From the NCBI GenBank assembly GCA_001247695.2, contig LGRX02025955.1, positions 1 to 64,000 of the forward strand: a stretch of DNA of 64,000 nucleotides, read 5' to 3'. Under the pieces are notes generated by a model, which was not told the DNA's origin, searched no databases, and was given only the letters and a program-made list of their open reading frames with translations. Position 1 is the first letter of the stretch. Each line of letters begins with the position of its first letter. Of the stretch, positions 3,716-53,065 are shown piece by piece. The position numbers and the translations under genes are program-made. The DNA is from Cymbomonas tetramitiformis (lineage: Eukaryota; Chlorophyta; Pyramimonadophyceae; Pyramimonadales; Pyramimonadaceae).

Positions 3716-6700
3716 ATGGCGACTCCACAGGGCATACAAGGAAGCCGCCCTGGACGCTACGTTTCAGAGTATGGCATTTGTCCGTGTAATCAATGCCACC
3801 ACCGAGGGCTTACGACACGTGAACTTGGCCGCCGTCAAATTCTCCGACATGTCAAACAATATGGTGTATACATTCCGCAACAGGAGTTCGAAGAAGAGAA
3901 TGAGCGATCATCTCCCCGAGATGATGAGATGGGCGGTGCGGATCGTGACCATACCCCTCGGGAAGCCGAGGTGATATCCAACTTTGAAGCGTTGGCGAAA
4001 CACATCGAGGACTTGGGGTTTGGGAAACAACTACATGATGATGATGGCGAATCGTCATCCGGAGACGACAGCGGCGACGGGGAAGGCGGTGGCGAGGAGG
4101 ATGAAGATGCCGAAGAGCTTACCGACGACTCTGCGGATGATTCCGATGGCGAAGGCGATGTGGTGAGTGCGGTGTTCAGGATGTGGTACCCATTGGGAAC
4201 ATGTGGGGGAACTATCGGTACGGGACGTGGTACCGGTCTAGGACCAGTACATACCGCCTCGTACGGTTACAGTAGTGAGTGCTGCTTGCAAGTTAAGGTA
4301 CCCACATGGGACCGATATGGGACCTGTGTGAACGGCCCGGTCCCATGTATGGTACCGGATGGGGACCCATATTGCCCCATGACTTTACACATGCATCCTT
4401 CTAGTACCAAGCGCGGATGGACTGATGAAGTGTTGGCGCCCTGCAGGACATTACCAAGATCAACGGACTGTTACTTGACCTTTTGGAGATGCAGGTCGAG
4501 CACAACGGGACTCAGTCCATCTTTGCATCTATTCTCGACATCGTCCGGGGAAGGCTCCTTAACAACGAAGAACGGCAAGTCCTTCCTCTCACGTTCCCCG
4601 AGACATTGAAGCGGTTTAAACCCTTCTACGGAGCGTACAATGAGGTGCACGTGTGCATCAAGGGCTGCATCATGTACAAGGGTGAACACAGCGAGCTCGA
4701 CAAATGTCCAAAGTGTAAGACTTCGAGGTATCGGTTGGGAAAAGAACACGACGGGGTGAGAACGAACGGTCGAGCAAGATCTATTTTCAGATACTGGCCT
4801 TTGGAATCACTGCTGGAGTACATCTTCCTCTGTCCAGAATATGCCGCGATGGTGCGGAGCTTTGATGCGACCAAGCTTCCTGACGAACAACCAGACAAAG
4901 TCACCGGGATACATGGTGCGAATCATGTAAAATTGCTCAGCCCTGTTGAGTGTCCCATAGTACCTTTCCCGTCCCTATCGGTCCCTTATCCCGCCCTGTA
5001 TAGGGAAACCTATGGGACCCATCTCTCGTCATCCTAGCTCAATCAGCGATTAGTTTGATATTATAGTTGGTTCGGTATGTGGTACATTTGAGGGCGAATT
5101 GCCGGACCCATGGGGAAATGACATTGGACCCGGCCTTGCGAATGCAGATTCTCCTGCTCTCCGAGCTTTGGTCCAGAAGTTCCCCAGATTCTTCGCGGAC
5201 CGCCGGAATCTATGGATTATTCTTTGCGCGGATGGAATCAACCCGTTCAACGATCAGCTATCCAGCATCATGCCCATTTGCTTCACGATTGGCAACATGC
5301 CCGGGGAAGAACGACACAAGCACGTGTTCACGTATGGTATTGCGGAGGGCAAGCCCAAGGACACTTCGCTCTTTTACGACCACCTGGTGGATGAGCTAGA
5401 GGTATTGTGGTCCACTGGTCATACGGTTTTCGACGTCATCGAGAAAGAACCATTTACAGTTCGATGCATGGTGTACGCGGTACTCATGGATTACGTTGGC
5501 CTTGTGGACGCATCCCGACGAATGGCTGCGACTGCCATTATGGGATGCTTGAAGTGCCTGATCAACGGCATTGGAAAGGGGAAAAGCAAGATGGGGAAAA
5601 CGATATTTCTGGAGAAGTACCAAAAGCGACGAGGTCCGCCCATTCTTGGATGTACAATCATACTCATATAGATCGGTCCTATGTTGGTCCCATGTCGGTC
5701 CGGTATTTGGGCCCCATACCGCCCCCGTCTTGTAACTGTCGCGTTTACCGAGAAGTTTGTGATAGGAGCGTTGGTGCTTACTAAGCACTGTCCGAGTCCC
5801 GCCCTGGCCCCGCCCCTGTTTCGCCCTTATCCTGCCCCCGTACCGCCAACAACCCGCCCCCAATCTGCCCCAATTCATTATGGATTGTACACTTACTTAC
5901 CCAGGTGGCGATACCGAGACTGACCTCCACACCGATGAACGTGTCCGACAAATACAGCAGTTGCACAAAGGCATGGCGAAGAACGGCGCTTCCAAAGAGC
6001 AGTTACAAGATAGTTTCAAGAAGTTTGGTGTGAAAACTCCTTGCGCGTTCTCCAGATTGGTGTACTTCCACGTCATACACATGTACCTTTTGGACTTGAT
6101 GCACGTATTGAGCAACTTGGTCCAACGCTTACACAAATCGATTTGTGGTGGCAACTGGTCAGCGCATTGTCGGAATTTTGCAAGAGAGTTTAAGGTCAAT
6201 CGGGCCTGGCTTGTTGCGCCTCCGCAACCTCGCAATGCTACACGTGTTCGAACAGCAGCTCAGCGACTTGCTGGTAAGTAGCCAATCTGGGGGAGGGGGG
6301 GGGGTACCACATGTGGGAACCATGTCGACCCAGGCTAGCCCCAACGGGTACGGGGGCGGGACCCAAGTAGGGGCCAAGGGGCGCAATCCTGCCCTGTCGC
6401 TTTGTGCCCACGGCAGGTAAACCTTCTCCGTGGGCACCGTCGAAGCCGTCGAGGGAAGCCATGACCGTGTGGTTACGTGACAATCTGAGCGCACCAAAAT
6501 CATGGGGGCCACTGGCTCAGCAGCTTATGCAACTGAAGGCTAACGAGAATTTCATTCCTCGAAGATTGAAGGCGGCATTGGGCATCACGGCGATGACTTC
6601 AGGAGTTTTGCCTGTTCTCTCGAGCTGGTCCGGTCGGGATGGGCTCGTGGAAAGGCCTTTGCACGCGGATTATGTTGGGGAGATATGCTCCATCGTTCGT

Positions 6701-8528
6701 GAGGTTGTCAGCCCTACAATTCTTCTGAAGGTAAACCTCTCCCTACAATTCTTTTGAAGGTCCAACACCCCGCCCCGACGGGGGCGGGGTGATTCCCTGA
6801 TTTAGTACCCACGTGGCCATAGTAGGTCCGCATTTATATTGTACCCATACGATTTCTTTTTGAGATCTGATATTTGCCTTTTCCAGGAAATGCCAGGTCT
6901 CATTGAGAGAGTGAAAGTGGTCCTAAAGCTTGGTGAAGATCATATGTCACCAGCCGATTTGGTGATGATGCGGCATCTCCTTACTCATGTCGTGCCGCAG
7001 CTCATGATGTACGGTCCAGCACGTGAGCTATGGATGTTTTGCTTCGAGGACTACTTTGGCCGAATGAAGCGTGCGGTCAAAACGCGATCGAGTCCGGTGG
7101 CCAGCATCATGAAGAATATAGAGTTGGAGCGCCTCGTAAACCTTTGTCGCGGGTTGAGCGATTTGGCGCGAGGGTCGAGGCCACCTGTATATCCACTCCC
7201 CGAACCTTCGCGGGTTTCAATGATGCTGAAATCAGGAGTGGAGCGTCAAGGCAGGAACACACTGCTATCAGAAGGTATGTGATACCGTGCCGCCCCTGTT
7301 GAGTCAACATGCCGGACCCGTCGGTCCTGGATCCCGCCCCGGCCCCGCCCCATGTATTGCAGTTCGATTTCATGCTAGCTACAAGCTTAAAATAAAGTTC
7401 GATATTTTGGGCTTCAGATACCATTAAGGACATCAAATCCTGGCTGCTGCTTCATTTCGATTGGTTTGCCGAACTTCGACATCAGTTTGAATTGGCTGCA
7501 GCACGCATCAGGGCGGAAAATCAGCGATCTCGACGGTTTGTACCCACACTTGCATCACTTTTACAGCCTGTCGCGCTCGCTACTCGTCCTTTGTTGGAAC
7601 CATCGGACGTCCCCGTGGGGGCGGGACGTTGGACCGGCACGGGACCCGCATCGGACTAATGTCTTCACCTGATTCACAAAACTACAGGTTACATCAACAA
7701 CGTGTCCGTCGGCAACGACTTGCTGGAAACCCCGTTGTCCCGTTGCGTCTGGTAGATCCTACCTTCGAGGACGCCAGCACGTGGAGGAAGGAGCCGAACC
7801 CCCATGGCGAAGGAATGGTCGTGAAACAATTTTCCACGGAAGAGATCAACTTCATTACCTCGCCACCGCCACGACTTTTGCGGTACAGTTATGTAAAGGT
7901 TGGACGTAGCATGTTCAGAGCTCGTGATCTGGACCATGATAAGGCGAGTATGCAGCGATACATGCTTGTGAAGTTCAGAGATATCTTTGTTGGACACAAA
8001 ATGGTTGACGGCATTCGCACTCCCCAATACGAAAACCAGGACTGGTGCGTGCCCCCATCCCGCCCTCACCCCGGCCTAATGGGGACCACATGTTGCCCTT
8101 GTTGTATTCGTTCAGTTTATTTAGGCGATCTCCATTTTCACCCAGAATTATACTGATGAATCAGGTACGCGGAGTTGCTGGATGTCTTCAAGATGTCGAT
8201 CCACGGCCACGACCCATTCATTTTTGTGAAAGTCAGGTGGTTTCCTCAAGAGGCCGCTGTCGCTGACCCCATCAGCCAGACCGTATTTCTACGTACCGAC
8301 TTGCCATGGGCCACGAAGGATTCTATTATCCGAGCTGAAGAAATTGAGTCCCAGGTTTGCATCGTGCCAATACCGTGGCTGCCTAAGCGGTTAGCAATCA
8401 CACCCTCGAACCGCCGCCGACTGCCTATGGGAATCAGAGAGAAGCCCGGTATATTGGCGGTGGTTCTGGACCGGACCGTTGACTTTGTTGGTGAAGTTGC
8501 TGACGATGAAGACAATCACGCCGCTTGA
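3716..8528 (+). CDS. CACTA (En/Spm-type) transposase, about nine exons
   Basis: Proposed exons are 3716-4162, 4447-4915, 5067-5633, 5905-6273, 6417-6730, 6887-7274, 7418-~7592, 7688-8044 and 8165-8528. Phases agree at every junction and total 1149 codons. Strong donors (GTGAGT at 4163, GTAAGT at 6274, GTATGT at 7275) and CAG acceptors support most of them; the ends of exons 3 and 7 are provisional. In order the product shows a CPCNQC zinc motif (transposase-associated domain), an acidic stretch, a CPKC zinc motif with RYWPL, the Tnp2 core (LCADGINPF; LMDYVG; HMYLLDLMHVL), a DUF4218-like block (GPARELWMFCFEDYFGRMKR) and a C-terminal DUF4216-like block (FVKVRWFP). This is the usual order for autonomous CACTA elements, which move by cut and paste. 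Introns are filled with GGTCC and CCCCGCCC words. The start codon and activity are uncertain. Confidence 0.85.
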
Positions 8529-15745: not shown

Positions 15746-18700
15746 TGTTGGATATACCCCTAGGACTCGGGATATATTCACTAAGTGAAGGTTTTCTCAG
15801 AATGTATTAAAGCTGATAAGTTAACCCGATATAACGGGCATAAACAGTTAGGGTTCGGGTTCGGGTGACAGTCATACACACTACTATAGGAAGAGTCACA
15901 AAGCAAGCGGTGTGACTGTTCCAGCACACCACCTAGTGTGGTGACTGGCTAGCCGAAGTGGAAACCTGTGAAGCAACACCATCTACAACGGTGGAAATTG
16001 GGCTCTAAGGGAAGGCCTATCCTTTCTGGCAGGGCGGTTCCCAGTCAAGAGTTGTAAATCTGAAACCGGTCCGTGATCGGACCCCTCTGCACATACAGCT
16101 ACGGTCAATTTCACTGTGCAGGAGCGGCATGATTAACTTGCTAGCCACTAGTTGGCGGTGGCACTGCTGTGCCAGTCCGCAGCACAGCCATGGTGCCGTG
16201 AATTGAAGTTGTCGATGCCGTGTTTGAATCATTCGTGGAGCCAGAAAAGGAATCTGAATTTTGTCGATCGCCGTGCACCGCCGCATGGTCTCCAGAGCTC
16301 TGCTCCTCGTCATCGGACGAGTACGGCGGTGGCGGGTAAGGTGGTGACTGTGGAACATAATCAGGGTCGGGATTATACAGCCATGGCGGCCGCGGGACAT
16401 TGCGGAGAGTGTGGAACCCCTGTCGCAGCTCCCGATACCGCGCCTGCCGATGCGGCGGAATAGCAGCCGGCGCTGCAAAAGTGAATGCAGGCTCGTTGCT
16501 GGTTGTCTCAGCAGCACCACCGACCTCCAGGCCGGTGTGGTCCGGTGCACATGCCTCGCCAGGGGCGGCAGCTGTGAGTGGCGCCGCGGTGGCGCATACA
16601 CAAAAGAACGCACAAAGCATTACCGCAATCGCCGAAGAGCGGGCAAACCCCCAAGGCGGTGCACCGCATCCCGGACGAGATGCTGTAGGGCGCGGGACCG
16701 CATCCCCACCGTAAATAGAGTCACACCCAGCTGCAGAGTCGTCCACGTCGCCGTCGCAAGAGTCGGTCTCCGACTCGGCGTGCATGTACCGCATCGCGAA
16801 GTCCTTGCCCTCAGCCGTGATCGAGAGTCCCCCCATCCGCGCGATCTTGTCCGCAAAGCAGAGGTCGGGCTCGTGCGCGTGCATGGGGTCCACCGGCATC
16901 ATGTCACCGGCGTCGGACGCCTCCGACTCGTCCGGGTAAACATGCGTGATTGCCGCCGGCGGTGGCGCCGGCGGTGCGTCCTCGCGGACATGCGTGCAAG
17001 CGGCAGCCGAGATCCCGCTCTCGACACCACCGACCGTGAAGCCGCCCATGTGGGTGGCAGGCTGGCAGTAGGGCAGGAACTCCTGCAACGCACCGTTTTC
17101 CTGCTCCGGCTCGATCCCGAAGGAACACGCCGAAACGCCGTCGAGCATCTCCGGCTTGCCCCCCGCCAGAAGGCAGAGCGCATCGAACCGCTCGCCGTCG
17201 TGCTCATCCATGGCCGTCTGAAACTGCTCCGCCAGCAAGTCGTTCTCGATGTCACCGAGGGAGAAGCTGTGGAAGCTTCCCCCAGCGCCGTGTTTGCCGC
17301 CGTTCGGGCAGTCGCGGTGCCAGTGGCGGGCATCGTCCTTCTTGCACGTTGAATTTTGGCAGAACGGAATGAAGTCGCCGCTGCCTTTGTGAAAGGCAAC
17401 GCGCTTCCTCACCTGCGACTGCGGCCAGTTTCCTCCCGTTGGGAGGTCACCTGCCGCAGAACGAACACCGGAACGCCTCCCCCGTTGCCGATCTTGTTCT
17501 TGTCCGCCCGCGGGGTAAAACCCCGCCCGTTGACCTTGTCCGTGGGGACCTTTAGCTGCCGCTTCACGTCGAGGATGATGGCCGCGAGGTCGGACAGCTG
17601 CGAGGTGTCGCCGTCAGTGGCCACGGCTGCCGCGGACAAGGTGAACGAGGCAGTGTGCGTACCGGCTGCCACGTGTCGGGCGTAGCACTCGAGGACCCAT
17701 TGCTGGATGGTGAGGAGGTCCACGGCCGCCCGCTGCTGGTGTGTGAAGAGTCGTGACACCACCGGCGCGTAGAATCCCGGGTCCAGCGCCGCGAGGAACA
17801 GCTCCTTCACCTCGTCATCGTCGAGAGTGTTGCGCCTCTTGGCAGACCGCAAGGCCGCGTTGAAGTCCGTGATGGACTCGGACGGGTCGGTGTGGGCCTT
17901 CAAGCGGACGCCAAGGAGGTCCGATGTCCCCTGGAAGGGTGCACCGGAGTCCAGCAGCCGCCGCGCGAGCTCCAGCAGGGCTCGCTTGCCGTCCAGCGGG
18001 TGCAATGTCGCAGAGGCTTCGAGCCAGTCACCCGCTGGAGAGGCGGGACATACGATGAGCTCGAGCGTTGAAAAAAGAAGTTTGTTGGCCTCGGGACGGA
18101 CGGCCAACGCGGAGTCCTCCAAGTCGAACATCGGCGCAAACAAAGGATCCTGCGCCTCGAAAGCCTCCTGGACAGCAGGCACTAGCTTGGAGAGAAGCAC
18201 CTGCGCGTTGGACTCCGTTCCCGTGAATCGCTCATGCTTCTCACGGAAACATTTTCGGATCACGTGCTTCGCCACGCTCTCGTCGAAGCGCTCACGGGTG
18301 AGAGTGCGAACACCCGCCAAGAAAACAGCTTGAGCGGAGTTCGCAGCCGGAACACCAGTAGTTGCCGGCGTAGCCGGCGTGACGGAATTGCGGGCAGCAG
18401 CGGAGTCGAAAATCGTAGCTAAAGAGCGTCGGCGAGACGCCATACTTGAGGTCAATCTAGTCGCAACCATGGTGAAAGAGACTGTAGAGACGAAGTGAGG
18501 GAAAATGGGACGAGGTGCGGAAGGAGCGGCGGCCAAAAGTCGTAATGCGGTTGTCGAGGAAAGCAAGGGAAAGCCGTGGCGTAAAAATCTCCCCACGTGC
18601 ATGTGGATGCAGAGTGACGCGGCCAAGGAAAGTGGTGTCGGATCCGACCAAAATTTCCAACGTCAACCAACGCGAAGCGAGGAAAATGAAGTCCGCCTCG

Positions 18701-19041
18701 TGCACAAGCCTCCCGCAAATCCAATCAACCAGGCATCAGCTAGGCCATACCGCTCCGCCGCGCCTCTAGTGGAGCCCCTCACTCCATCTCAAGCGTCGCT
18801 GTTTAGCCAGACATGGCTAAAATTCGCAGTGTCTAAATAAAGAGTGCGTGGGGCCAAACCTGTTGGATATACCCCTAGGACTCGGGATATATTCACTCAG
18901 TGAAGGTTTTCTCAGAATGTATTAAAGCTGATAAGTTAACCCGATATAACGGGCATAAACAGTTAGGGCTCGGGTTCGGGTGACAGTCATACACACTACT
19001 ATAGGAAGAGTCACAAAGCAAGCGGTGTGACTGTTCCAGCA
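15746..19041 (-). mobile_element. Gag-only LTR retrotransposon B (full-length copy)
   Basis: Direct repeats of 181 bp (15746-15926 and 18861-19041) start TGTTGGATATACC and end GTTCCAGCA, flanked by CTTTT at 15741-15745 and 19042-19046. Coding is on the minus strand, so 18861-19041 is the 5' LTR. Next to it the sequence GGTTTGGCCCCACGCACTC is a candidate primer-binding site. A weak purine run (AGGTGGTG) precedes the 3' LTR. There is a gag plus a second frame but no pol, like the non-autonomous gag-only LTR elements described in plants. Confidence 0.85.
16141..18470 (-). CDS. Retrotransposon Gag and overlapping zinc-knuckle frame (copy 1)
   Basis: The first frame starts at an ATG in good context (18470, CACCATGG) and stops at 17409 (353 residues). 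Its central part (LARRLLDSGAPFQG through LTIQQWVLECYA) resembles retrotransposon gag/UBN2 capsid domains. A second frame, -1 relative to it, is open across the end of gag and continues to 16141. It holds a zinc-knuckle-like motif CQNSTC-X6-H-X4-C, an acidic middle, a hydrophobic segment (AIAVMLCAFFCVCATAAPL) and a proline-rich tail. Joining could be by -1 frameshifting (GGGTTTT at 17517-17523, correctly phased) or by splicing (AG|GTGAGG at the gag stop). Pol motifs are absent. The packaging role is inferred from the gag family. Confidence 0.65.
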
Positions 19042-19263
19042 CTTTTGTCACCTGGCAGCAGAACACCCCTGCACTTTCCACAAAGTCCTCCACTCGATAA
19101 ACCGAGTTTGGTGGGCATTGAAGGGTTGAGGGACCTCGCCCAACTCCCCAATATGGACACTAATACTTCATAAATATCCAATAGTTGACTACCGTGGTAG
19201 TTATGGATGTTTCCGCCCTCATACTGATCCCATACTGCTAAAAACGAATTCGCCCTTACGGTG

Positions 19264-19580
19264 TTAAACCCTTTGCCTTTCCCTTTCCCTTCATTAACAG
19301 ACGTATAGTGTCTCTCTGGACGTAAAGTGTCTCACTGGTAACACGAGTGTGTGTCAAGCGCTATCATACACACGTAATGTGTCTCAGTATGACAGATTTT
19401 ACGGGGAAACGAATGGCGGCCGAATTTACCGCGGCATTAAAAATGCTGGAAATGCCCGATTAAATCGCGGAGCTCTGTAATTCTGAAAACCGACGAGCAG
19501 GTCAGATTCAGGATCGCGAGCTGTCGCGACCGTCGAGCGCTTAGGACGGGATGCTTAGGACGGGCGCACGGGTGCGTTAT
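19264..19580. repeat. Right terminal inverted repeat of the Mutator-like element
   Basis: Reverse complement of about 11267-11590 with few differences; it ends GGGTGCGTTAT. It is carried into every array unit (for example about 22655-22971 and 26046-26362), which means the array formed after the Mutator-like and MITE insertions. Confidence 0.8.
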
Positions 19581-19795
19581 TTATTTTATTTTCTCATCTT
19601 TGATCTTAACCTGAAAGTGCTTCTTTCTAGTCGGACTAGGACGAAAAGTAGGGGAAAGTCCGTGCGATTATATAATTAATAATGTATAGACCATTTTGTG
19701 ACTTGATATTTCTAATGTCGTCTGAATGGCTCTACTGTTCTGTAGGCTGATAGACATAGCTAGGGCTCTGAGATAGGTCGATGCTCTATCATAAC

Positions 19796-19799
19796 AAAA
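19796..19799 (-). terminator. Pol III terminator after the permuted tRNA-Leu
   Basis: A TTTT run on the minus strand, 12 nt past the end of the 5'-half segment. It is the first such run after tRNA-Ile, so it could terminate one transcript carrying both tRNAs. It is present in every unit. Confidence 0.65.
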
Positions 19800-19811
19800 G
19801 ATAAGGCGCTG

Positions 19812-19910
19812 GATCTTAAGTCTACCCCCTTAGACCAACTCGGGCATCCTAGCTTGAAGAGGATGCTAGGAACGGGGTTCGAACCCGTGCGCACATGTGT
19901 ACAGTAGATC
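19812..19910 (-). tRNA. Circularly permuted tRNA-Leu(UAA), copy 1
   Basis: Reading the minus strand, the 3' half comes first (GATCTACTGTACACATGTGC... to TTCCTAGCA, ending at 19864). A 10-nt spacer TCCTCTTCAA follows (19863-19854), then the 5' half (GCTAGGATGCCCGAG...GTAGACTTAAGATC, 19853-19812). Rejoined they give an 85-nt class II tRNA: a perfect 7-bp acceptor stem (GCTAGGA/TCCTAGC), discriminator A, T-arm CGGGTTCGAACCCCG, anticodon stem GTAGA/TCTAC and loop CTTAAGA with anticodon TAA. The order is reversed from a normal gene. The GATC present at both outer edges leaves the exact splice point ambiguous, but the standard 37/38 position fits. Maturation would need circularisation and cleavage in the spacer, as shown for permuted tRNAs of red algae. 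Confidence 0.85.
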
Positions 19911-19928
19911 GCATATCCAACGTTATCA

Positions 19929-20002
19929 TAGTCCCACACGGGCTCGAACCGCGGACCTTGGCGTTATTAGCACCACGCTCTAACCAACTGAGCTATAAGA
20001 CC
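19929..20002 (-). tRNA. tRNA-Ile(AAU), copy 1
   Basis: A 74-nt intronless cloverleaf: acceptor GGTCTTA pairing with TGGGACT (three G-U pairs), D-arm GCTCAGTTGGTTAGAGC, anticodon stem TGGTG/CGCCA with loop CTAATAA, T-arm CGCGGTTCGAGCCCGTG, discriminator A. It lies 18-22 nt upstream of the permuted tRNA-Leu on the same strand, with no TTTT run between them. A TATATATA at -32 and CAA just before the start resemble plant tRNA promoters. The wobble-rich acceptor leaves some doubt about function. Confidence 0.85.
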
Positions 20003-20030
20003 ATGTTGATGACGAGTTGCACAACTACAA

Positions 20031-20044
20031 TTGTATATATACAA
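20031..20044 (-). promoter_or_regulatory. TATA-like element upstream of tRNA-Ile
   Basis: TGTATATATACAA lies 32-39 nt upstream of the tRNA-Ile 5' end, and CAACAT directly precedes the gene. Plant nuclear tRNA genes often have a TATA-like box near -30 and CAA near the start. It is present in all units. Confidence 0.5.
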
Positions 20045-20224
20045 ACATTTTAACAGCATCAGGGGTCGCCTGCGCCTTTTTCCTGACTCCTCCATCACCA
20101 CGCGCGCACACAGGCGCACACCGTGACGCATGCGATGCAATGATAACATCAAACATGACACGCACAGACCCGATCACATTCGCATCCCCATCCGCACAAG
20201 ACAATACCGAGAAAATGTGTGCAC

Positions 20225-20333
20225 GGTCTCCGCAGAGTCAGCATAATCTAACGATCAGTAATTGTGCATAACCATAATGCCCGCAGCATCAGCACAATGT
20301 CGATCATCAGATTCTGCTGACTCTGCGGAGACC
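20225..20333. repeat. Conserved 109-nt hairpin in each array unit
   Basis: GGTCTCCGCAGAGTCAGCA at 20225-20243 pairs perfectly with 20315-20333, and weaker pairing continues inward (AATCT/AGATT). Repeated at about 23616-23724, 28891-28999, 32282-32390 and 37559-37667. It lies 220 nt upstream of tRNA-Ile. It may be an undetected small RNA or merely the remains of a palindromic insertion. No other gene is visible in 20045-20640. Confidence 0.45.
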
Positions 20334-20798
20334 ATGTTCAACGAACACTGCCCGGTAATATATATCATGCATACGCATACTCGATACTGTGGAACATCAA
20401 TATCGAATATGGCATCACTGTTCACTCTCGCTCATCGTCATGTCTCATCACTCGACTGCACTTTGTAACATGCGATGGAACACGCACGCACGGCTAGTCT
20501 CTGTCGTGTGTGCATGTGTGGGCTATCTCCATCATATGAAAAGCAAGGAGACCCCGTTTGACAGATCGAATGAGTGAAACTTGCCTGTCGAAGGGCGTGG
20601 CGGGGGATTGATCACTCCCTCTGACAATATAGCTGATATCATCACCGAGGGAGAAGCTGTGGAAGCTTCCCCCAGCGCCGTGTTTGCCGCCGTTCGGGCA
20701 GTCGCGGTGCCAGTGGCGGGCCTCGTCCTTCTTGCACGTTGAATTTTGGCAGAACGGAATGAAGTCGCCGCTGCCTTTGTGAAAGGCAACGCGCTTCC

Positions 20799-21860
20799 TC
20801 ACCTGCGACTGCGGCCAGTTTCCTCCCGTCGGGAGGTCACCTGCCGCAAAACGAACACCGGAACGCCTCCCCCGTTGCCGATCTTGTTCTTGTCCGCCCG
20901 CGGGGTAAAACCCCGCCCGTTGACCTTGTCCGTGGGGACCTTTAGCTGCCGCTTCACGTCGAGGATGATGGCCGCGAGGTCGGACAGCTGCGAGGTGTCG
21001 CCGTCAGTGGCCACGGCTGCCGCGGACAAGGTGAACGAGGCAGTGTGCGTACCGGCTGCCACGTGTCGGGCGTAGCACTCGAGGACCCATTGCTGGATGG
21101 TGAGGAGGTCCACGGCCGCCCGCTGCTGGTGTGTGAAGAGTCGTGACACCACCGGCGCGTAGAATCCCGGGTCCAGCGCCGCGAGGAACAGCTCCTTCAC
21201 CTCGTCATCGTCGAGAGTGTTGCGCCTCTTGGCGGACCGTAAGGCCGCGTTGAAGTCCGTGATGGACTCGGACGGGTCGGTGTGGGCCTTCAAGCGGACG
21301 CCAAGGAGGTCCGATGTCCCCTGGAAGGGTGCACCGGAGTCCAGCAGACGCCGTGCGAGCTCCAGCAGGGCTCGCTTGCCGTCCAGAGGGTGCAAGGCCG
21401 CAGACGCCTCGAGCCAGTCACCCGCTGGAGAGGCGGGACATACGATGAGCTCGAGCGTTGAAAAAAGAGGTTTGTTGGCCTCGGGACGGACGGCCAACGC
21501 GGAGTCCTCCAAGTCGAACATCGGCGCAAACAAAGGATCCTGCGCCTCGAAAGCCTCCTGGATAGCAGGCACTAGCTTGGAGAGAAGCACCTGCGCGTTG
21601 GACTCCGTTCCCGTGAATCGCTCATGCTTCTCACGGAAACATTTTCGGATCACGTGCTTCGCCACGCTCTCGTCGAAGCGCTCACGGGTGAGAGTGCGAA
21701 CACCCGCCAAGAAAACAGCTTGAGCGGAGTTCGCAGCCAGAACACCAGTAGTTGCCGGCGTAGCCGGCGTGACGGAATTGCGGGCAGCAGCGGAGTCGAA
21801 AATCGTAGCTAAAGAGCGTCGGCGAGACGCCATACTTGAGGTCAATCTAGTCGCAACCAT
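20799..21860 (-). CDS. Retrotransposon Gag, array copy 2
   Basis: Intact 353-residue gag frame from ATG 21860. It differs from copy 1 by the AIQEAF and ASAALHP markers shared with copies 3-6, plus private changes (GVLAAN, EANKPLF). The overlapping zinc-knuckle frame (20494-20802) keeps the CX4CX6HX4C motif but runs into unrelated sequence after SLGD at the unit junction, so the second product is truncated. The LTR at 22252-22432 lies upstream. Confidence 0.65.
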   Translation of the reverse strand: MVATRLTSSMASRRRSLATIFDSAAARNSVTPATPATTGVLAANSAQAVFLAGVRTLTRERFDESVAKHVIRKCFREKHERFTGTESNAQVLLSKLVPAIQEAFEAQDPLFAPMFDLEDSALAVRPEANKPLFSTLELIVCPASPAGDWLEASAALHPLDGKRALLELARRLLDSGAPFQGTSDLLGVRLKAHTDPSESITDFNAALRSAKRRNTLDDDEVKELFLAALDPGFYAPVVSRLFTHQQRAAVDLLTIQQWVLECYARHVAAGTHTASFTLSAAAVATDGDTSQLSDLAAIILDVKRQLKVPTDKVNGRGFTPRADKNKIGNGGGVPVFVLRQVTSRREETGRSRR

Positions 21861-22251
21861 GGTGAAAGAGACTGTAGAGACGAAGTGAGGGTAAATGGGA
21901 CGAGGTGCGGAAGGAGCGGCGGCCAAAAGTCGTAATGCGGTTGTCGAGGAAAGCAAGGGAAAGCCGTGGCGTAAAAAATCTCCCCACGTGCATGTGGATG
22001 CAGAGTGACGCGGCCAAGGAAAGTGGTGTCGGATCCGACCAAAATTTCCAACGTCAACCAACGCGAAGCGAGGAAAATGAAGTCCGCCTCGTGCACAAGC
22101 CTCCCGCAAATCCAATCAACCAGGCATCAGCTAGGCCATACCGCTCCGCCGCGCCTCTAGTGGAGCCCCTCACTCCATCTCAAGCGTCGCTGTTTAGCCA
22201 GACATGGCTAAAATTCGCGGTGTCTAAATAAAGAGTGCGTGGGGCCAAACC

Positions 22252-22432
22252 TGTTGGATATACCCCTAGGACTCGGGATATATTCACTCAGTGAAGGTTT
22301 TCTCAGAATGTATTAAAGCTGATAAGTTAACCCGATATAACGGGCATAAACAGTTAGGGCTCGGGTTCGGGTGACAGTCATACACACTACTATAGGAAGA
22401 GTCACAAAGCAAGCGGTGTGACTGTTCCAGCA
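22252..22432 (-). repeat. Solo-type LTR of array copy 2
   Basis: Same 181-bp LTR as 18861-19041. Further array LTRs lie at about 25643-25823, 30918-31098, 34309-34489 and (diverged) 39597-39778. Each is followed by CTTTTGTCACC except the last, which abuts CACTA sequence. Confidence 0.85.
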
Positions 22433-23202
22433 CTTTTGTCACCTGGCAGCAGAACACCCCTGCACTTTCCACAAAGTCCTCCACTCGATAAACCGAGTTT
22501 GGTGGGCATTGAAGGGTTGAGGGACCTCGCCCAACTCCCCAATATGGACACTAATACTTCATAAATATCCAATAGTTGACTACCGTGGTAGTTATGGATG
22601 TTTCCGCCCTCATACTGATCCCATACTGCTAAAAACGAATTCGCCCTTACGGTGTTAAACCCTTTGCCTTTCCCTTTCCCTTCATTAACAGACGTATAGT
22701 GTCTCTCTGGACGTAAAGTGTCTCACTGGTAACACGAGTGTGTGTCAAGCGCTATCATACACACGTAATGTGTCTCAGTATGACAGATTTTACGGGGAAA
22801 CGAATGGCGGCCGAATTTACCGCGGCATTAAAAATGCTGGAAATGCCCGATTAAATCGCGGAGCTCTGTAATTCTGAAAACCGACGAGCAGGTCAGATTC
22901 AGGATCGCGAGCTGTCGCGACCGTCGAGCGCTTAGGACGGGATGCTTAGGACGGGCGCACGGGTGCGTTATTTATTTTATTTTCTCATCTTTGATCTTAA
23001 CCTGAAAGTGCTTATTTCTAGTCGGACTAGGACGAAAAGTAGGGGAAAGTCCGTGCGATTATATAATTAATAATGTATAGACCATTTTGTGACTTGATAT
23101 TTCTAATGTCGTCTGAATGGCTCTACTGTTCTGTAGGCTGATAGACATAGCTAGGGCTCTGAGATAGGTCGATGCTCTATCATAACAAAAGATAAGGCGC
23201 TG

Positions 23203-23301
23203 GATCTTAAGTCTACCCCCTTAGACCAACTCGGGCATCCTAGCTTGAAGAGGATGCTAGGAACGGGGTTCGAACCCGTGCGCACATGTGTACAGTAGAT
23301 C
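23203..23301 (-). tRNA. Circularly permuted tRNA-Leu(UAA), copy 2
   Basis: Identical arrangement to 19812-19910: 3' half, 10-nt spacer, 5' half, then a TTTT run. All stems are intact. Confidence 0.85.
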
Positions 23302-23319
23302 GCATATCCAACGTTATCA

Positions 23320-23393
23320 TAGTCCCACACGGGCTCGAACCGCGGACCTTGGCGTTATTAGCACCACGCTCTAACCAACTGAGCTATAAGACC
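23320..23393 (-). tRNA. tRNA-Ile(AAU), copy 2
   Basis: Same sequence as 19929-20002, with the same upstream TATA-like box. Confidence 0.85.
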
Positions 23394-24189
23394 ATGTTGA
23401 TGACGAGTTGCACAACTACAATTGTATATATACAAACATTTTAACAGCATCAGGGGTCGCCTGCGCCTTTTTCCTGACTCCTCCATCACCACGCGCGCAC
23501 ACAGGCGCACACCGTGACGCATGCGATGCAATGATAACATCAAACATGACACGCACAGACCCGATCACATTCGCATCCCCATCCGCACAAGACAATACCG
23601 AGAAAATGTGTGCACGGTCTCCGCAGAGTCAGCATAATCTAACGATCAGTAATTGTGCATAACCATAATGCCCGCAGCATCAGCACAATGTCGATCATCA
23701 GATTCTGCTGACTCTGCGGAGACCATGTTCAACGAACACTGCCCGGTAATATATATCATGCATACGCATACTCGATACTGTGGAACATCAATATCGAATA
23801 TGGCATCACTGTTCACTCTCGCTCATCGTCATGTCTCATCACTCGACTGCACTTTGTAACATGCGATGGAACACGCACGCACGGCTAGTCTCTGTCGTGT
23901 GTGCATGTGTGGGCTATCTCCATCATATGAAAAGCAAGGAGACCCCGTTTGACAGATCGAATGAGTGAAACTTGCCTGTCGAAGGGCGTGGCGGGGGATT
24001 GATCACTCCCTCTGACAATATAGCTGATATCATCACCGAGGGAGAAGCTGTGGAAGCTTCCCCCAGCGCCGTGTTTGCCGCCGTTCGGGCAGTCGCGGTG
24101 CCAGTGGCGGGCCTCGTCCTTCTTGCACGTTGAATTTTGGCAGAACGGAATGAAGTCGCCGCTGCCTTTGTGAAAGGCAACGCGCTTCC

Positions 24190-25251
24190 TCACCTGCGAC
24201 TGCGGCCAGTTTCCTCCCGTCGGGAGGTCACCTGCCGCAAAACGAACACCGGAACGCCTCCCCCGTTGCCGATCTTGTTCTTGTCCGCCCGCGGGGTAAA
24301 ACCCCGCCCGTTGACCTTGTCCGTGGGGACCTTTAGCTGCCGCTTCACGTCGAGGATGATGGCCGCGAGGTCGGACAGCTGCGAGGTGTCGCCGTCAGTG
24401 GCCACGGCTGCCGCGGACAAGGTGAACGAGGCAGTGTGCGTACCGGCTGCCACGTGTCGGGCGTAGCACTCGAGGACCCATTGCTGGATGGTGAGGAGGT
24501 CCACGGCCGCCCGCTGCTGGTGTGTGAAGAGTCGTGACACCACCGGCGCGTAGAATCCCGGGTCCAGCGCCGCGAGGAACAGCTCCTTCACCTCGTCATC
24601 GTCGAGAGTGTTGCGCCTCTTGGCGGACCGTAAGGCCGCGTTGAAGTCCGTGATGGACTCGGACGGGTCGGTGTGGGCCTTCAAGCGGACGCCAAGGAGG
24701 TCCGATGTCCCCTGGAAGGGTGCACCGGAGTCCAGCAGACGCCGTGCGAGCTCCAGCAGGGCTCGCTTGCCGTCCAGAGGGTGCAAGGCCGCAGACGCCT
24801 CGAGCCAGTCACCCGCTGGAGAGGCGGGACATACGATGAGCTCGAGCGTTGAAAAAAGAAGTTTGTTGGCCTCGGGACGGACGGCCAACGCGGAGTCCTC
24901 CAAGTCGAACATCGGCGCAAACAAAGGATCCTGCGCCTCGAAAGCCTCCTGGATAGCAGGCACTAGCTTGGAGAGAAGCACCTGCGCGTTGGACTCCGTT
25001 CCCGTGAATCGCTCATGCTTCTCACGGAAACATTTTCGGATCACGTGCTTCGCCACGCTCTCGTCGAAGCGCTCACGGGTGAGAGTGCGAACACCCGCCA
25101 AGAAAACAGCTTGAGCGGAGTTCGCAGCCGGAACACCAGTAGTTGCCGGCGTAGCCGGCGTGACGGAATTGCGGGCAGCAGCGGAGTCGAAAATCGTAGC
25201 TAAAGAGCGTCGGCGAGACGCCATACTTGAGGTCAATCTAGTCGCAACCAT
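24190..25251 (-). CDS. Retrotransposon Gag, array copy 3
   Basis: Intact 353-residue gag frame from ATG 25251, with the AIQEAF and ASAALHP markers. The overlapping second frame (23885-24193) is truncated at the unit junction as in copy 2. The LTR at about 25643-25823 is upstream. Confidence 0.65.
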   Translation of the reverse strand: MVATRLTSSMASRRRSLATIFDSAAARNSVTPATPATTGVPAANSAQAVFLAGVRTLTRERFDESVAKHVIRKCFREKHERFTGTESNAQVLLSKLVPAIQEAFEAQDPLFAPMFDLEDSALAVRPEANKLLFSTLELIVCPASPAGDWLEASAALHPLDGKRALLELARRLLDSGAPFQGTSDLLGVRLKAHTDPSESITDFNAALRSAKRRNTLDDDEVKELFLAALDPGFYAPVVSRLFTHQQRAAVDLLTIQQWVLECYARHVAAGTHTASFTLSAAAVATDGDTSQLSDLAAIILDVKRQLKVPTDKVNGRGFTPRADKNKIGNGGGVPVFVLRQVTSRREETGRSRR

Positions 25252-26592
25252 GGTGAAAGAGACTGTAGAGACGAAGTGAGGGTAAATGGGACGAGGTGCG
25301 GAAGGAGCGGCGGCCAAAAGTCGTAATGCGGTTGTCGAGGAAAACAAGGGAAAGCCGTGGCGTAAAAATCTCCCCACGTGCATGTGGATGCAGAGTGACG
25401 CGGCCAAGGAAAGTGGTGTCGGATCCGACCAAAATTTCCAACGTCAACCAACGCGAAGCGAGGAAAATGAAGTCCGCCTCGTGCACAAGCTTCCCGCAAA
25501 TCCAATCAACCAGGCATCAGCTAGGCCATACCGCTCCGCCGCGCCTCTAGTGGAGCCCCTCACTCCATCTCAAGCGTCGCTGTTTAGCCAGACATGGCTA
25601 AAATTCGCGGTGTCTAAATAAAGAGTGCGTGGGGCCAAACCTGTTGGATATACCCCTAGGACTCGGGATATATTCACTCAGTGAAGGTTTTCTCAGAATG
25701 TATTAAAGCTGATAAGTTAACCCGATATAACGGGCATAAACAGTTAGGGCTCGGGTTCGGGTGACAGTCATACACACTACTATAGGAAGAGTCACAAAGC
25801 AAGCGGTGTGACTGTTCCAGCACTTTTGTCACCTGGCAGCAGAACACCCCTGCACTTTCCACAAAGTCCTCCACTCGATAAACCGAGTTTGGTGGGCATT
25901 GAAGGGTTGAGGGACCTCGCCCAACTCCCCAATATGGACACTAATACTTCATAAATATCCAATAGTTGACTACCGTGGTAGTTATGGATGTTTCCGCCCT
26001 CATACTGATCCCATACTGCTAAAAACGAATTCGCCCTTACGGTGTTAAACCCTTTGCCTTTCCCTTTCCCTTCATTAACAGACGTATAGTGTCTCTCTGG
26101 ACGTAAAGTGTCTCACTGGTAACACGAGTGTGTGTCAAGCGCTATCATACACACGTAATGTGTCTCAGTATGACAGATTTTACGGGGAAACGAATGGCGG
26201 CCGAATTTACCGCGGCATTAAAAATGCTGGAAATGCCCGATTAAATCGCGGAGCTCTGTAATTCTGAAAACCGACGAGCAGGTCAGATTCAGGATCGCGA
26301 GCTGTCGCGACCGTCGAGCGCTTAGGACGGGATGCTTAGGACGGGCGCACGGGTGCGTTATTTATTTTATTTTCTCATCTTTGATCTTAACCTGAAAGTG
26401 CTTCTTTCTAGTCGGACTAGGACGAAAAGTAGGGGAAAGTCCGTGCGATTATATAATTAATAATGTATAGACCATTTTGTGACTTGATATTTCTAATGTC
26501 GTCTGAATGGCTCTACTGTTCTGTAGGCTGATAGACATAGCTAGGGCTCTGAGATAGGTCGATGCTCTATCATAACAAAAGATAAGGCGCTG

Positions 26593-28576
26593 GATCTTAA
26601 GTCTACCCCCTTAGACCAACTCGGGCATCCTAGCTTGAAGAGGATGCTAGGAACGGGGTTCGAACCCACAACCAACCTATGATCGAGTTTTCGATTCGCG
26701 AATCCATCCTGACGTATTGTGGCTCACGACGAAAAGCGAACGCGACCCCCGACTGACTGCATATGGCATCCTGTCGGAACAGTATCGCGATACCTACGGG
26801 AAACCGGTCAGGAATACGTCGAGACCCAAAAAATCCGACGTGGCTGCAGATGTGGCACGCATTAACCCTCCGATTGAAACCTATGCGACGGTCGACTTTG
26901 CTTTAGGAAATGTTAGATGTTAAGTACGAGACCCCCCCGGATTATATATTCCTCTTTCGTGGATATAACTGGCGATAAGAGCCTGGAGGTATCGAATGTT
27001 GAAAGCCGTTGTCGATGTGGCGCAATACAATTCATAACTTGGATACATTACGTGAGACATTCGTCGGGAGAAATTCGGAATTGTGAACTTATTCATCTAA
27101 ACCGTTCGCTGAAAATATAGTAATATCTCTACTTAATCGTGCGTGCCCGCGAAAAAGATGGTATGTCAAAGACGGCGGATTACACCGACCTGTGCGTGAT
27201 ACGGTAGTGTGGCATCGTAGAAAAGATTTCGTTTTACTTTTCACAGATTCACCTCTCGCGTCTGTCGACAGCCGAGCGACATGGACGATGGAGTTCTCCA
27301 GTGTCGTCTTGTACAGAATCGTGTCCGTTTTTGTAATTCCTGTCGCTTTTTGCAGTTCTTTAACAATATTTTACGTTAAGTCTAATTTGTTAAATATGCA
27401 GTTTTAGCTAAAGACGGAAGGCTTTCTCTCCCGCAGTGCCCCTGTCCAGCGAAGTAAAGATCTCCAGGATTGTATCATAATCTGAGCAATATTTTGCTTC
27501 AAAATATTATCACATATTCCTACTTAGTATGCGGGTACCCGTTTCGCAAAGAATGATGACCCATAGCGCAACTATTGCGGGTTTCAAAATCCTGAAATTC
27601 CGCCCGCTTCCGCCAAATGAACGCGTCAGCCCACAGCGAGATGTGTGGTTGACCGTTCAGTCTGTGCAATTTACTTAGTGAAGACAGCACATATGAAATA
27701 CTATTTTCGCTAACGCTTCCCTCATCCGATGCGCAGGCTCGCTTGCAAGCGAGCGCGCGAATGATGGAAGAAACCCTAGCGGAAACGTGGACGCGGTTGA
27801 CATCCGCGTGTCCGCTAGAGGTGAAATTGCACTGCCAGACGCTCAGTGTGTGTTTATTATGCTTATATGATATGCGTGATATGTTCATGTCGTGCGGTAT
27901 GCGTCCCTGCTGGGCGTGAGTCGAGATGGCTGGCTCGAATCACGTCCATTACCCCCCCTCATAAGAACCGTACAGCATCCGAAATTCTGGACGGATCTTG
28001 CTCGCGCAAAAGATATGTTGTTCCTAACACTTATTATAATGCATATGGAAAGTTATGTTGTGTTCGATATACGTTAGTATGCGGAAATCAACAGCCGCTG
28101 TGCAGTGACTTACGGGTCGAGGTCCCACCGGTACTCTGAGTGCAAGTCATGTTTTTTTTTGTTTTCAATATCTGTTTTGGGTTGGACATGTGACGTGAGG
28201 TCAGACACGTCATCATATTCGGAAATCAAAAGTGACAATATAATTCTGGTATCGACTGATGACGCGGACTTTGCATCGCGGACATTTCATTGGTTTCAAC
28301 TAATTTATAAAGCGTTTATTGGTTCAGTAGTAATGATTTTTGATGACTCGGCATATTTCCCGAGACGCATTTCGAGACGTATCGCGATACCAACGGGGTC
28401 CTGACGTGATCCGTTCGTAAAGGCGTTTCCGAAACTGTCGCATCCCATTCGAGAGAGATTCGCGGACCAGGTCTCGATTCGCATCGTGACACCTTGCACG
28501 TGACATCACGACGTGACGCGATATTAAATTCGATCATAGGTTGGTTGTGCCCGTGCGCACATGTGTACAGTAGATC
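26593..28576 (-). pseudogene. Permuted tRNA-Leu(UAA), copy 3, split by a TIR element
   Basis: The 5' half (26593-26634) and the acceptor/T-stem end (26645-26666) are intact. The rest of the 3' half continues only at 28550, because the 1.88-kb element at 26667-28549 lies within the T-arm. It is presumably non-functional unless the element excises. Confidence 0.8.
26667..28549. mobile_element. 1.88-kb non-autonomous TIR element in tRNA-Leu, copy 1
   Basis: Ends are CACAACCAACCTATGATCGA and its exact complement (20-bp inverted repeats). The flanking C-run gives a 2-bp (CC) or 3-bp (CCC) target duplication; the run of Cs makes this ambiguous. The uninterrupted tRNA-Leu copies show the empty site. 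Interior frames (for example 27520-27888, 27846-28139, 28105-28404) are short, overlap on both strands and match nothing I know. Composition is AT-richer than the surrounding gag. No transposase is visible and the superfamily is unassigned. Confidence 0.8.
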
Positions 28577-31868: not shown

Positions 31869-31967
31869 GATCTTAAGTCTACCCCCTTAGACCAACTCGG
31901 GCATCCTAGCTTGAAGAGGATGCTAGGAACGGGGTTCGAACCCGTGCGCACATGTGTACAGTAGATC
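31869..31967 (-). tRNA. Circularly permuted tRNA-Leu(UAA), copy 4
   Basis: Intact, same structure as copy 1: 5' half 31869-31910, 3' end of the tRNA at 31921, TTTT run downstream on the minus strand. Confidence 0.85.
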
Positions 31968-31985
31968 GCATATCCAACGTTATCA

Positions 31986-32059
31986 TAGTCCCACACGGGC
32001 TCGAACCGCGGACCTTGGCGTTATTAGCACCACGCTCTAACCAACTGAGCTATAAGACC
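31986..32059 (-). tRNA. tRNA-Ile(AAU), copy 4
   Basis: Same sequence and spacing to the permuted tRNA-Leu as copy 1. Confidence 0.85.
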
Positions 32060-35258: not shown

Positions 35259-37244
35259 GATCTTAAGTCTACCCCCTTAGACCAACTCGGGCATCCTAGC
35301 TTGAAGAGGATGCTAGGAACGGGGTTCGAACCCACAACCAACCTATGATCGAGTTTTCGATTCGCGAATCCATCCTGACGTATTGTGGCTCACGACGAAA
35401 AGCGAACGCGACCCCCGACTGACTGCATATGGCATCCTGTCGGAACAGTATCGCGATACCTACGGGAAACCGGTCAGGAATACGTCGAGACCCAAAAAAT
35501 CCGACGTGGCTGCAGATGTGGCACGCATTAACCCTCCGATTGAAACCTATGCGACGGTCGACTTTGCTTTAGGAAATGTTAGATGTTAAGTACGAGACCC
35601 CCCCGGATTATATATTCCTCTTTCGTGGATATAACTGGCGATAAGAGCCTGGAGGTATCGAATGTTGAAAGCCGTTGTCGATGTGGCGCAATACAATTCA
35701 TAACTTGGATACATTACGTGAGACATTCGTCGGGAGAAATTCGGAATTGTGAACTTATTCATCTAAACCGTTCGCTGAAAATATAGTAATATCTCTACTT
35801 AATCGTGCGTGCCCGCGAAAAAGATGGTATGTCAAAGACGGCGGATTACACCGACCTGTGCGTGATACGGTAGTGTGGCATCGTAGAAAAGATTTCGTTT
35901 TACTTTTCACAGATTCACCTCTCGCGTCTGTCGACAGCCGAGCGACATGGACGATGGAGTTCTCCAGTGTCGTCTTGTACAGAATCGTGTCCGTTTTTGC
36001 AATTCCTGTCGCTTTTTGCAGTTCTTTAACAATATTTTACGTTAAGTCTAATTTGTTAAATATGCAGTTTTAGCTAAAGACGGAAGGCTTTCTCTCCCGC
36101 AGTGTGCCCCTGTCCAGCGAAGTAAAGATCTCCAGGATTGTATCATAATCTGAGCAATATTTTGCTTCAAAATATTATCACATATTCCTACTTAGTATGC
36201 GGGTACCCGTTTCGCAAAGAATGATGACCCATAGCGCAACTATTGCGGGTTTCAAAATCCTGAAATTCCGCCCGCTTCCGCCAAATGAACGCGTCAGCCC
36301 ACAGCGAGATGTGTGGTTGACCGTTCAGTCTGTGCAATTTACTTAGTGAAGACAGCACATATGAAATACTATTTTCGCTAACGCTTCCCTCATCCGATGC
36401 GCAGGCTCGCTTGCAAGCGAGCGCGCGAATGATGGAAGAAACCCTAGCGGAAACGTGGACGCGGTTGACATCCGCGTGTCCGCTAGAGGTGAAATTGCAC
36501 TGCCAGACGCTCAGTGTGTGTTTATTATGCTTATATGATATGCGTGATATGTTCATGTCGTGCGGTATGCGTCCCTGCTGGGCGTGAGTCGAGATGGCTG
36601 GCTCGAATCACGTCCATTACCCCCCCTCATAAGAACCGTACAGCATCCGAAATTCTGGACGGATCTTGCTCGCGCAAAAGATATGTTGTTCCTAACACTT
36701 ATTATAATGCATATGGAAAGTTATGTTGTGTTCGATATACGTTAGTATGCGGAAATCAACAGCCGCTGTGCAGTGACTTACGGGTCGAGGTCCCACCGGT
36801 ACTCTGAGTGCAAGTCATGTTTTTTTTTGTTTTCAATATCTGTTTTGGGTTGGACATGTGACGTGAGGTCAGACACGTCATCATATTCGGAAATCAAAAG
36901 TGACAATATAATTCTGGTATCGACTGATGACGCGGACTTTGCATCGCGGACATTTCATTGGTTTCAACTAATTTATAAAGCGTTTATTGGTTCAGTAGTA
37001 ATGATTTTTGATGACTCGGCATATTTCCCGAGACGCATTTCGAGACGTATCGCGATACCAACGGGGTCCTGACGTGATCCGTTCGTAAAGGCGTTTCCGA
37101 AACTGTCGCATCCCATTCGAGAGAGATTCGCGGACCAGGTCTCGATTCGCATCGTGACACCTTGCACGTGACATCACGACGTGACGCGATATTAAATTCG
37201 ATCATAGGTTGGTTGTGCCCGTGCGCACATGTGTACAGTAGATC
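35259..37244 (-). pseudogene. Permuted tRNA-Leu(UAA), copy 5, split by a TIR element
   Basis: Same disruption as copy 3: 5' half 35259-35300, 3' end from 35311, interrupted after 35332 and resuming at 37218. The identical insertion point shows that it was duplicated with the array rather than inserted twice. Confidence 0.8.
35333..37217. mobile_element. 1.88-kb non-autonomous TIR element in tRNA-Leu, copy 2
   Basis: Nearly identical to 26667-28549, with the same 20-bp inverted ends. Differences include a 2-bp insertion near 36102 (CAGTGTGCCCC against CAGTGCCCC) and a T-to-C change near 36000. Confidence 0.8.
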
Positions 37245-45570: not shown

Positions 45571-45900
45571 CTAGATGCCTGTCAAGAAACCCGTCCAAGG
45601 AGTACGTTTCTGAACCCCCCACCCCCCCCCTAACACACACATGGTCAAACAAGGGCGATGAGCGAGGGTTCTGCTAGCATCCCCCTCACAGGCCCACCTG
45701 GTGCTGCAGCGCCGCTCGAGGCGTGTCCCCCCGAGGCCTCTCCCTGCGGTCACATCCCCCGCACAGCCCGGCGTTACGCACCAAACTGTTTGTTCTACGT
45801 GCTCACAAACGTGCGAAGGTGATCCGCCGCGTGCACTGCAACTCGTCATCGGGCAGTAGGAGGCACGGTCTCGCATCCTTCGACACGGATCTCGACTTAC

Positions 45901-47244: not shown

Positions 47245-47274
47245 TTTTTGCTCCCGAAGGGTTATGTATCCCAC

Positions 47275-52696: not shown

Positions 52697-53065
52697 TTTT
52701 CAAAGAGACTTGCAATATTGGATGGGTTGGGAGCTGGGAGTGTAAACTCCCGGCCCCCAACGAGTCCCCAAGGGGAGGGGCCGTCCCCCCCCTCCCCTCC
52801 CCCACCCCTCCCGGTCCCCCGCCCACCCGACCACCTTTCTCAACGTCTCCAAAACGACCCCCTGAATTCTTCGACTTCCTTCCCCACCACTCAGAATCAG
52901 CCACCCCTCCACTCACCCGGCCATGGCTGCTTCTCCATCTTCTAGAGTTTTTTTTAGCACTTCGTTGCTTTTTCTCTAGATGTCACCCCGCTGACAAGCG
53001 GGCTGAGCCCCTTTTTGTGGGCGCGCTGTAGCACAGTAGCAGAGGGAGTAGCTGATGGAGAACCT
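51985..53065 (+). mobile_element. 5'-truncated LINE, same family as at 61.2-64 kb
   Basis: Besides the coding tail, the 3' untranslated part matches: CGGCCATGGCTGCTTCTCCA, TCTCTAGATGTCACCC.GCTGA and CCCCTTT.TGTGGGCGCGCT. A GC-rich Zn-finger-free leader (52740-52830) is shared with 61500-61590. Truncation at the 5' end is typical of target-primed reverse transcription. An AT dinucleotide run follows at about 53067-53093. Confidence 0.75.

Follow-up and report, generated by a model that had tools for sequence, protein, structure and literature searches.

The locus at 19815–19909 (minus strand) of the window, by which we mean the whole 64,000-nucleotide stretch of Cymbomonas tetramitiformis DNA analyzed here, is supported by its sequence as a circularly permuted tRNA-Leu(UAA) gene of the 37/38 type. 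We consider it likely that this gene and its relatives are working nuclear tRNA-Leu(UAA) genes that would be transcribed by Pol III as the downstream member of a dicistron. As the first-pass annotation had described, the halves of the gene are reversed: on the minus strand, the 3′ half (19909–19864, 46 nt, A38 to A73) lies upstream of the 5′ half (19853–19815, 39 nt, G1 to G37), with the 10-nt spacer TCCTCTTCAA (19863–19854) between them. The limits it had given, 19812–19910, were accurate to within 3 nt, and the rejoined halves do make an 85-nt class II tRNA, which ARAGORN folded as tRNA-Leu(taa) with perfect cloverleaf stems (acceptor 7/7, T stem 5/5, and anticodon stem 5/5) and with U33, A73, and a long variable arm present. 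A type II 37/38 permuted gene has its 3′ half before its 5′ half, a spacer of 1–74 bp, and no terminator inside. The genes in the window and on another contig, C2899, show this order with spacers of 10 and 16 nt, respectively, that are free of internal TTTT, and both give the 85-nt cloverleaf with consensus bases and the anticodon taa. Ordinary scans of the window with ARAGORN and Rfam (gathering thresholds) missed the permuted tRNA-Leu and listed only five tRNA-Ile genes.

The number of copies proposed for the window was borne out, with five permuted copies, three intact and two cut in the T arm. The 5′ halves of the intact copies start at 19815, 23206, and 31872; copies 2 and 3 occupy 23206–23300 and 31872–31966 (minus strand), with partner tRNA-Ile genes at 23320–23393 and 31986–32059, respectively. 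The copies lie in a tandem array (17252–39778) of 3.39-kb units, five with tRNAs and a sixth, partial one without, and they evidently arose through tandem duplication of this unit, by which the array would have expanded. The five tRNA-bearing units differ in 24 variable columns in their left 2.6 kb and in one substitution and a 13-nt insertion on their right side, neither side's changes touching the tRNA part, which is invariant. Because the array copies are this alike, they cannot show selection.

We give particular weight to copies elsewhere in the genome. The assembly searched totals 851.7 Mb over 25,745 contigs, of which contig C17073 contains the window; this assembly is not identical to the published assembly, which is reported as 914.3 Mb in 35,945 scaffolds (PMC10675990). 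The pattern CCGAGTN{4,10}AAGGN{5,9}CTTAAG, which describes the 5′ half or an ordinary tRNA-Leu, finds only genes with a matching D arm, in an assembly that is incomplete. It matched 20 places (controls, 0 and 2), namely 5 in the window, 3 in contig C411, 2 in C2899, 1 in contig C1, and 9 others. Eleven of the 20 were tRNA-like, comprising 8 intact permuted genes, 2 cut permuted genes, and 1 gene in ordinary order; at the three of the nine other places scanned with ARAGORN (one of the seven with an identical string, and both singles), an ordinary tRNA was absent.

The strongest evidence for the permuted-gene reading is the second family, on C2899. It consists of a diverged permuted tRNA-Leu(UAA) gene in two copies, which are separated by 29 kb and have 968 bp in common at 99.4%; each is arranged as tRNA-Ile(AAU), a 20-nt leader, the 3′ half, the 16-nt spacer, the 5′ half, and TTTT. 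Its mature tRNA differs from that of the window at 4 of 85 positions. Two of these positions, 4 and 81, form the pair 4:69, which is A-U in the window and G-C in C2899, a compensatory change; the remaining two differences sit in the variable loop. The leader and trailer of C2899 form a helix (TGCTGCTGG / CCAGCAGCA) of 9 bp with one mismatch at its base, and the sequence of this helix is unlike that in the window. In a blastn comparison of the 3-kb loci, similarity between C2899 and the window was restricted to 213 columns (87.8%), spanning from 11 nt before tRNA-Ile to just beyond the 5′ half; the conserved unit is therefore the pair of tRNA-Ile and permuted tRNA-Leu. The two diverged families thus supply covariation that favors the acceptor and junction helices.

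Over 390 nt, the three permuted copies in C411 match the window copy exactly, and the transposon that cuts two of the window copies is absent from them. The first 10.5 kb of C411 is collinear with window positions 16146–26667 at 99.4%, and its other flank differs, so that C411 may be either allelic to the window or a separate locus. A search for further permuted class II genes with the pattern GGTTCGANNCCN{20,50}CCGAGNGG matched 12 places, compared with 6 matches in each of the forward and reverse controls; the eight distinct sequences from those 12 places had at most 2 of 7 acceptor pairs when read in one fixed register. This is a weak negative, because the pattern also misses the tRNA-Leu genes described here (their D arm is CCGAGTTGG).

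All permuted tRNA-Leu copies found adjoin an ordinary tRNA-Ile gene on its 3′ side. The partner of copy 1 is a tRNA-Ile(AAU) in ordinary order (19929–20002, minus strand; RF00005, 57.7 bits), and a 19-nt leader (19910–19928, minus strand) connects it to the 3′ half. The TATA-like element TATATATA, read from the upstream sequence at 20034–20041 (minus strand), sits at −39 to −32 of tRNA-Ile, ahead of that gene and 125–132 nt upstream of the 3′ half. From tRNA-Ile to where the permuted gene ends, copy 1 contains no TTTT. In both the window and C2899, TTTT follows the 5′ half; that of copy 1 (19796–19799, minus strand) is the sole run of four T in the minus strand from 20120 to 19700 and is presumably the Pol III terminator. 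At the level of sequence, the locus has the layout of a dicistronic Pol III gene, with two RNA units, one promoter, and one terminator.

How permuted tRNA genes are transcribed was raised as a question in a review (PMC3978253), which notes that the B box of such a gene precedes its A box; because this order is unsuitable for TFIIIC, an upstream TATA-like element was proposed. Around copy 1, no TATA-like element was found within 50 bp of the 3′ half, a space that tRNA-Ile and the 19-nt leader fill; a TATA-like element this close is a habit of Cyanidioschyzon merolae and not a general criterion. Since the B and A boxes of the permuted gene are misordered and there is no space for a TATA element of its own, we infer that Pol III starts at the tRNA-Ile promoter. 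The tandem behind an ordinary tRNA gene would be a simple and testable answer to the question of transcription.

Alternatively, the permuted gene could be functional and separately transcribed, driven by a cryptic promoter or by an element upstream of it, its place behind tRNA-Ile being incidental. We regard this as unlikely, although not negligibly so. In its favor, most permuted genes of C. merolae possess a TATA-like element of their own within 50 bp (PMC3978253). Against it, the leader and tRNA-Ile itself take up the 50 bp before the 3′ half, and the diverged C2899 copies repeat this tandem order with flanks that are otherwise unlike those of the window over the 3-kb loci compared.

Cleavage after G37 and before A38 would restore the anticodon loop CUUAAGA. 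A bulge-helix-bulge (BHB) motif is cut at a set place in its 3-nt bulges. In the strict BHB register, the window junction reads CTTA-AG^A-TCCAGCG on the 5′ strand and CGTTGGA-TATG-CG^A on the 3′ strand, giving a 7-bp outer helix and three of four central pairs, with both cuts at the expected position of a 3-nt bulge; the central 4-bp helix carries a U-U mismatch, and the BHB-type motif is present in a relaxed form. The outer helix is made by the leader and the trailer (19800–19814, minus strand), which pair over 7 bp in this register and over 8 bp in the predicted fold. The chance of a 7-bp outer helix in that register was P = 0.0030 with shuffled flanks and P = 0.0012 with random window segments. 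For C2899, the predicted fold has a 2-bp pairing within the junction loop in place of the BHB central helix.

Folding energies were less distinctive. The minimum-energy fold of the isolated precursor was the permuted form with the 8-bp outer helix, and the energy of the whole precursor was moderately unusual (z-score −1.74; 10 of 200 shuffles were equally good). When the leader–trailer duplex was scored by energy alone, with no register imposed, it was equaled by 178 of 20,000 shuffles, 845 of 20,000 random segments, and 1,061 of 18,172 natural flanks; as modeled, the stability of this duplex is by itself not rare. Co-folding with tRNA-Ile gave a minimum-energy structure that mispairs both T arms (−75.3 versus −63.2 for the intended fold).

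In C. merolae and green algae, the described pathway starts with a cut at the junction; the ends are then ligated into a circle, the circle is opened at the spacer, and CCA is added. In Cymbomonas, Pol III would begin at the tRNA-Ile promoter, and tRNase Z would release the precursor 3′ of tRNA-Ile. The tRNA splicing endonuclease would then cleave the BHB-like junction at 37/38, and a ligase would seal the cleaved ends into a circular RNA. RNase P and tRNase Z would excise the spacer and so open the circle, after which CCA would be added.

Two of the array copies, in units 3 and 5, are cut by the same insertion at the same place. In the first of them (26596–28575, minus strand), the 5′ half (26596–26634) is whole and the 3′ half is split into 26645–26664 and 28550–28575 by 1883 bp (26667–28549, minus strand) inserted between T-arm positions 53 and 54. 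The insertion ends in 20-bp perfect terminal inverted repeats (CACAACCAACC...) and is accompanied by a 2-bp duplication, GG. The second cut copy (35262–37243, minus strand) holds an insertion of 1885 bp (35333–37217) that is 99.8% identical to the first. The simplest account is a single transposon insertion in the T arm, later duplicated, which would have knocked out both array copies. CACTA/EnSpm elements have CAC termini, a 3-bp duplication, and a tnp2 transposase. The insertion has CACAAC termini and 20-bp inverted repeats, but its duplication is 2 bp, and its longest stop-to-stop frame is at most 139 codons. A stretch of C411 is 86% similar to part of the interior of the insertion. Elsewhere in the window (5054–7282, plus strand), a tnp2-type Transposase_21 piece (5054–5671) and a DUF4218 piece (6806–7282) lie in separate open reading frames (ORFs) and are perhaps a broken CACTA/EnSpm-like element. 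The genome is reported to be 68% interspersed repeats (PMC10675990), and a review relates the proposal that disrupted tRNA genes escape, or are protected against, mobile elements (PMC3978253). A transposon within a permuted tRNA is a counter-example to full protection.

These cut copies bear on the question of whether the loci are dead relics, that is, tandem tRNA-Leu copies that have lost their outer halves and their processing. Duplication followed by loss of the outer halves is indeed a published route to permuted genes, and a transposon has cut two of the window copies. Nevertheless, we find this reading improbable: every stem of the rejoined tRNA is perfect, the acceptor change between the two families is compensatory and the junction helix has been rebuilt between them, and, with the D-arm and anticodon pattern used, a tRNA-Leu(UAA) gene in ordinary order was not found outside a viral contig.

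Each array unit also carries a piece of an ORF that we call gag-like with weak support from modeling; the copy at 24190–25443 (minus strand) is one of six in the array. It belongs to a multicopy family (51 of 52 hits were named CYMTET, at up to 96%), and its predicted structure, built on an alignment from 21 of the 52 hits, is of low confidence (pLDDT 61, pTM 0.39). Of the 50 fold matches listed, 49 were retroviral-type capsids, none of them reaching E 0.001, and the ORF copies tested gave no Pfam, NCBIfam, or PDB sequence match. We considered and rejected a tRNA cassette borne by a retroelement, since the C2899 cassettes share only the tRNA pair with the window and are dissimilar beyond it over the 3-kb loci; a retroelement thus appears unneeded for the cassette.

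Two scans asked how often such genes appear by chance. In the first, the window was cut into doubled tiles, which allow two halves to meet in normal order, and ARAGORN gave eight permuted-type tile hits, seven Leu and one Cys. The seven Leu tiles cover all three intact copies and one of those cut by the transposon, with the anticodon read as aag, not taa, in three of the seven. The tRNA-Cys at 12060 was rejected as an artefact, because its source was a tandem repeat joined across an artificial tile edge. The second, a separate geometric scan (acceptor ≥6/7, T stem ≥4/5, and D-arm consensus), returned exactly the five copies. A chance resemblance or an assembly artefact is hardly credible: the doubled-tile scan gave 0 hits in 30 dinucleotide shuffles and the geometric scan 4 in 100 shuffles, and although the copy number of the array could be mis-assembled in a repeat-rich genome whose published assembly is a hybrid of long and short reads (PMC10675990), the cassette is present on three contigs, and its diverged copies on C2899 contradict an artefact.

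According to the first-pass annotation, a lack of mature reads across the junction, together with a conventional tRNA-Leu(UAA) gene elsewhere that accounts for all expression, would speak against its reading. This holds by half: one ordinary-order gene exists, on C1, but in a contig that fits a giant virus reported to be transcriptionally silent. The gene, at C1:240587, is the only ordinary-order tRNA-Leu(UAA) that matched the pattern; it is intronless and lies within a cluster of eight tRNAs (Leu-taa, Ile-tat, Asn, Ser, Ser, Arg, Thr, and Asn, around 240587; L133 1491–2309). Compared with the permuted genes, its D, anticodon, and T arms agree nearly letter for letter, and its acceptor stem and variable arm differ. 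At 418,321 bp, C1 fits the 418-kb scaffold reported as a giant endogenous virus, which is described as transcriptionally silent (PMC10675990). Two 10-kb pieces around the C1 tRNA-Leu have 31–32% G+C and contain 13 ORFs of at least 180 amino acids (aa). Of the 10 scanned, 7 had a Pfam match, and the matches include mRNA capping enzyme beta chain, dUTPase, DUF5871, and DUF5901 proteins.

An ordinary host tRNA-Leu(UAA) gene was not found by the same pattern in the incomplete assembly. It is conceivable, although we would sooner doubt it, that the host obtains its tRNA-Leu(UAA) solely from permuted genes behind tRNA-Ile and needs a circular RNA to decode UUA, and that the virus carries a linear, intronless version. 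If so, the virus would bypass the circularization step of its host, and the viral gene may have its origin in a mature tRNA of the host, a natural un-permutation. The linear version on the viral contig would allow the permuted and linear forms of one tRNA to be compared.

In the IMG/VR viral collection, the permuted pattern specific for tRNA-Leu had no match, and a looser permuted pattern matched at least 120 stretches. Of the 122 matches tested, 106 had an ordinary tRNA nearby and 4 had 7/7 acceptor pairing, 2 of these without an ordinary tRNA; follow-up patterns in the same collection returned the same two loci only. These loci (L096, 4189–4238, plus strand; L040, 5502–5549, minus strand) are permuted-tRNA-like, with 7/7 acceptor complementarity over a short spacer and a paired T stem, and have no ordinary tRNA at either place; by eye, their contigs are bacteriophage-like. 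L096 has its entire anticodon arm in the 5′ half and was accepted by the doubled ARAGORN test, and L040 was rejected by that test and has no cloverleaf fold. Bacterial phages are not expected to use BHB splicing.

The window holds several further features. An ORF of 1087 aa at 55288–58551 (plus strand) encodes a piggyBac-type transposase with an N-terminal PTM/DIR17-type Tudor domain and matches two CYMTET proteins at 90–92%. A satellite-like array of ∼189-bp units occupies 58979–60802, and inverted arms of 715 nt, 85% complementary and 8.9 kb apart, lie at 51990–52704 and 61603–62317. ORFs of 267 and 740 aa that overlap these arms had no match in Pfam or NCBIfam, and the 740-aa ORF had no PDB sequence match. 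At 42207–44506 and 45571–47274, protein kinase pieces are found in two ORFs together with a kelch-repeat ORF, which overlies a tandem repeat with a 141-bp unit (87% matches). Among named proteins, those that match the larger kinase ORF best are CYMTET proteins; a kinase ORF matched C. tetramitiformis at 89% over 76% of its length.

The first-pass annotation had stated that permuted tRNAs are known only from a few red algae, prasinophytes, nucleomorphs, and archaea. The restriction to those groups does not hold, as permuted tRNAs are also reported in the green alga Auxenochlorella (PMC12633428). A permuted tRNA-Leu(UAA) of this type is itself already known; the unusual parts are the tandem with tRNA-Ile, the transposon hit, and the linear version on a viral contig. 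Among the titles and abstract openings returned by searches of the open literature, none concerned a permuted tRNA that follows another tRNA or is interrupted by a transposon, or one from Cymbomonas. The Cymbomonas paper that reports the use of tRNAscan-SE does not contain the word “permuted” in its main text (PMC10675990), nor does the main text of the 2015 genome paper (PMC5741210).

The closest known genes are the permuted tRNA-Leu(TAA) genes of type II 37/38 in Ostreococcus lucimarinus and Micromonas pusilla (Maruyama 2010, tabulated in PMC3978253). Like those of Cymbomonas, they belong to prasinophyte green algae, have the 37/38 junction, and lack an intron, and their spacers are similarly short (25 and 20 bp, respectively, compared with 10 and 16 in Cymbomonas). 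In contrast to these Mamiellales, Cymbomonas (Pyramimonadales) has multiple copies, partly cut by a transposon. The Cymbomonas copies lie directly behind tRNA-Ile(AAU). The permuted tRNA-Leu(TAA) of C. merolae shares the anticodon and a 10-bp spacer but is of type I 20/21, with its junction in the D loop and an intron at 37/38, and most permuted genes of that alga, unlike those of Cymbomonas, have their own upstream TATA-like element (PMC3978253). Auxenochlorella is likewise a green alga, in which permuted genes were found after tRNAscan-SE had given an incomplete set (PMC12633428). The precedent for a dicistronic arrangement is the plant tRNA-snoRNA genes (Kruszka 2003, cited in PMC8351944), in which a tRNA also heads a Pol III transcript with a second RNA aboard and, according to the cited title, RNase Z carries out the processing. 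Unlike the plant snoRNA, the passenger in Cymbomonas is a permuted tRNA, which would also require splicing and circularization.
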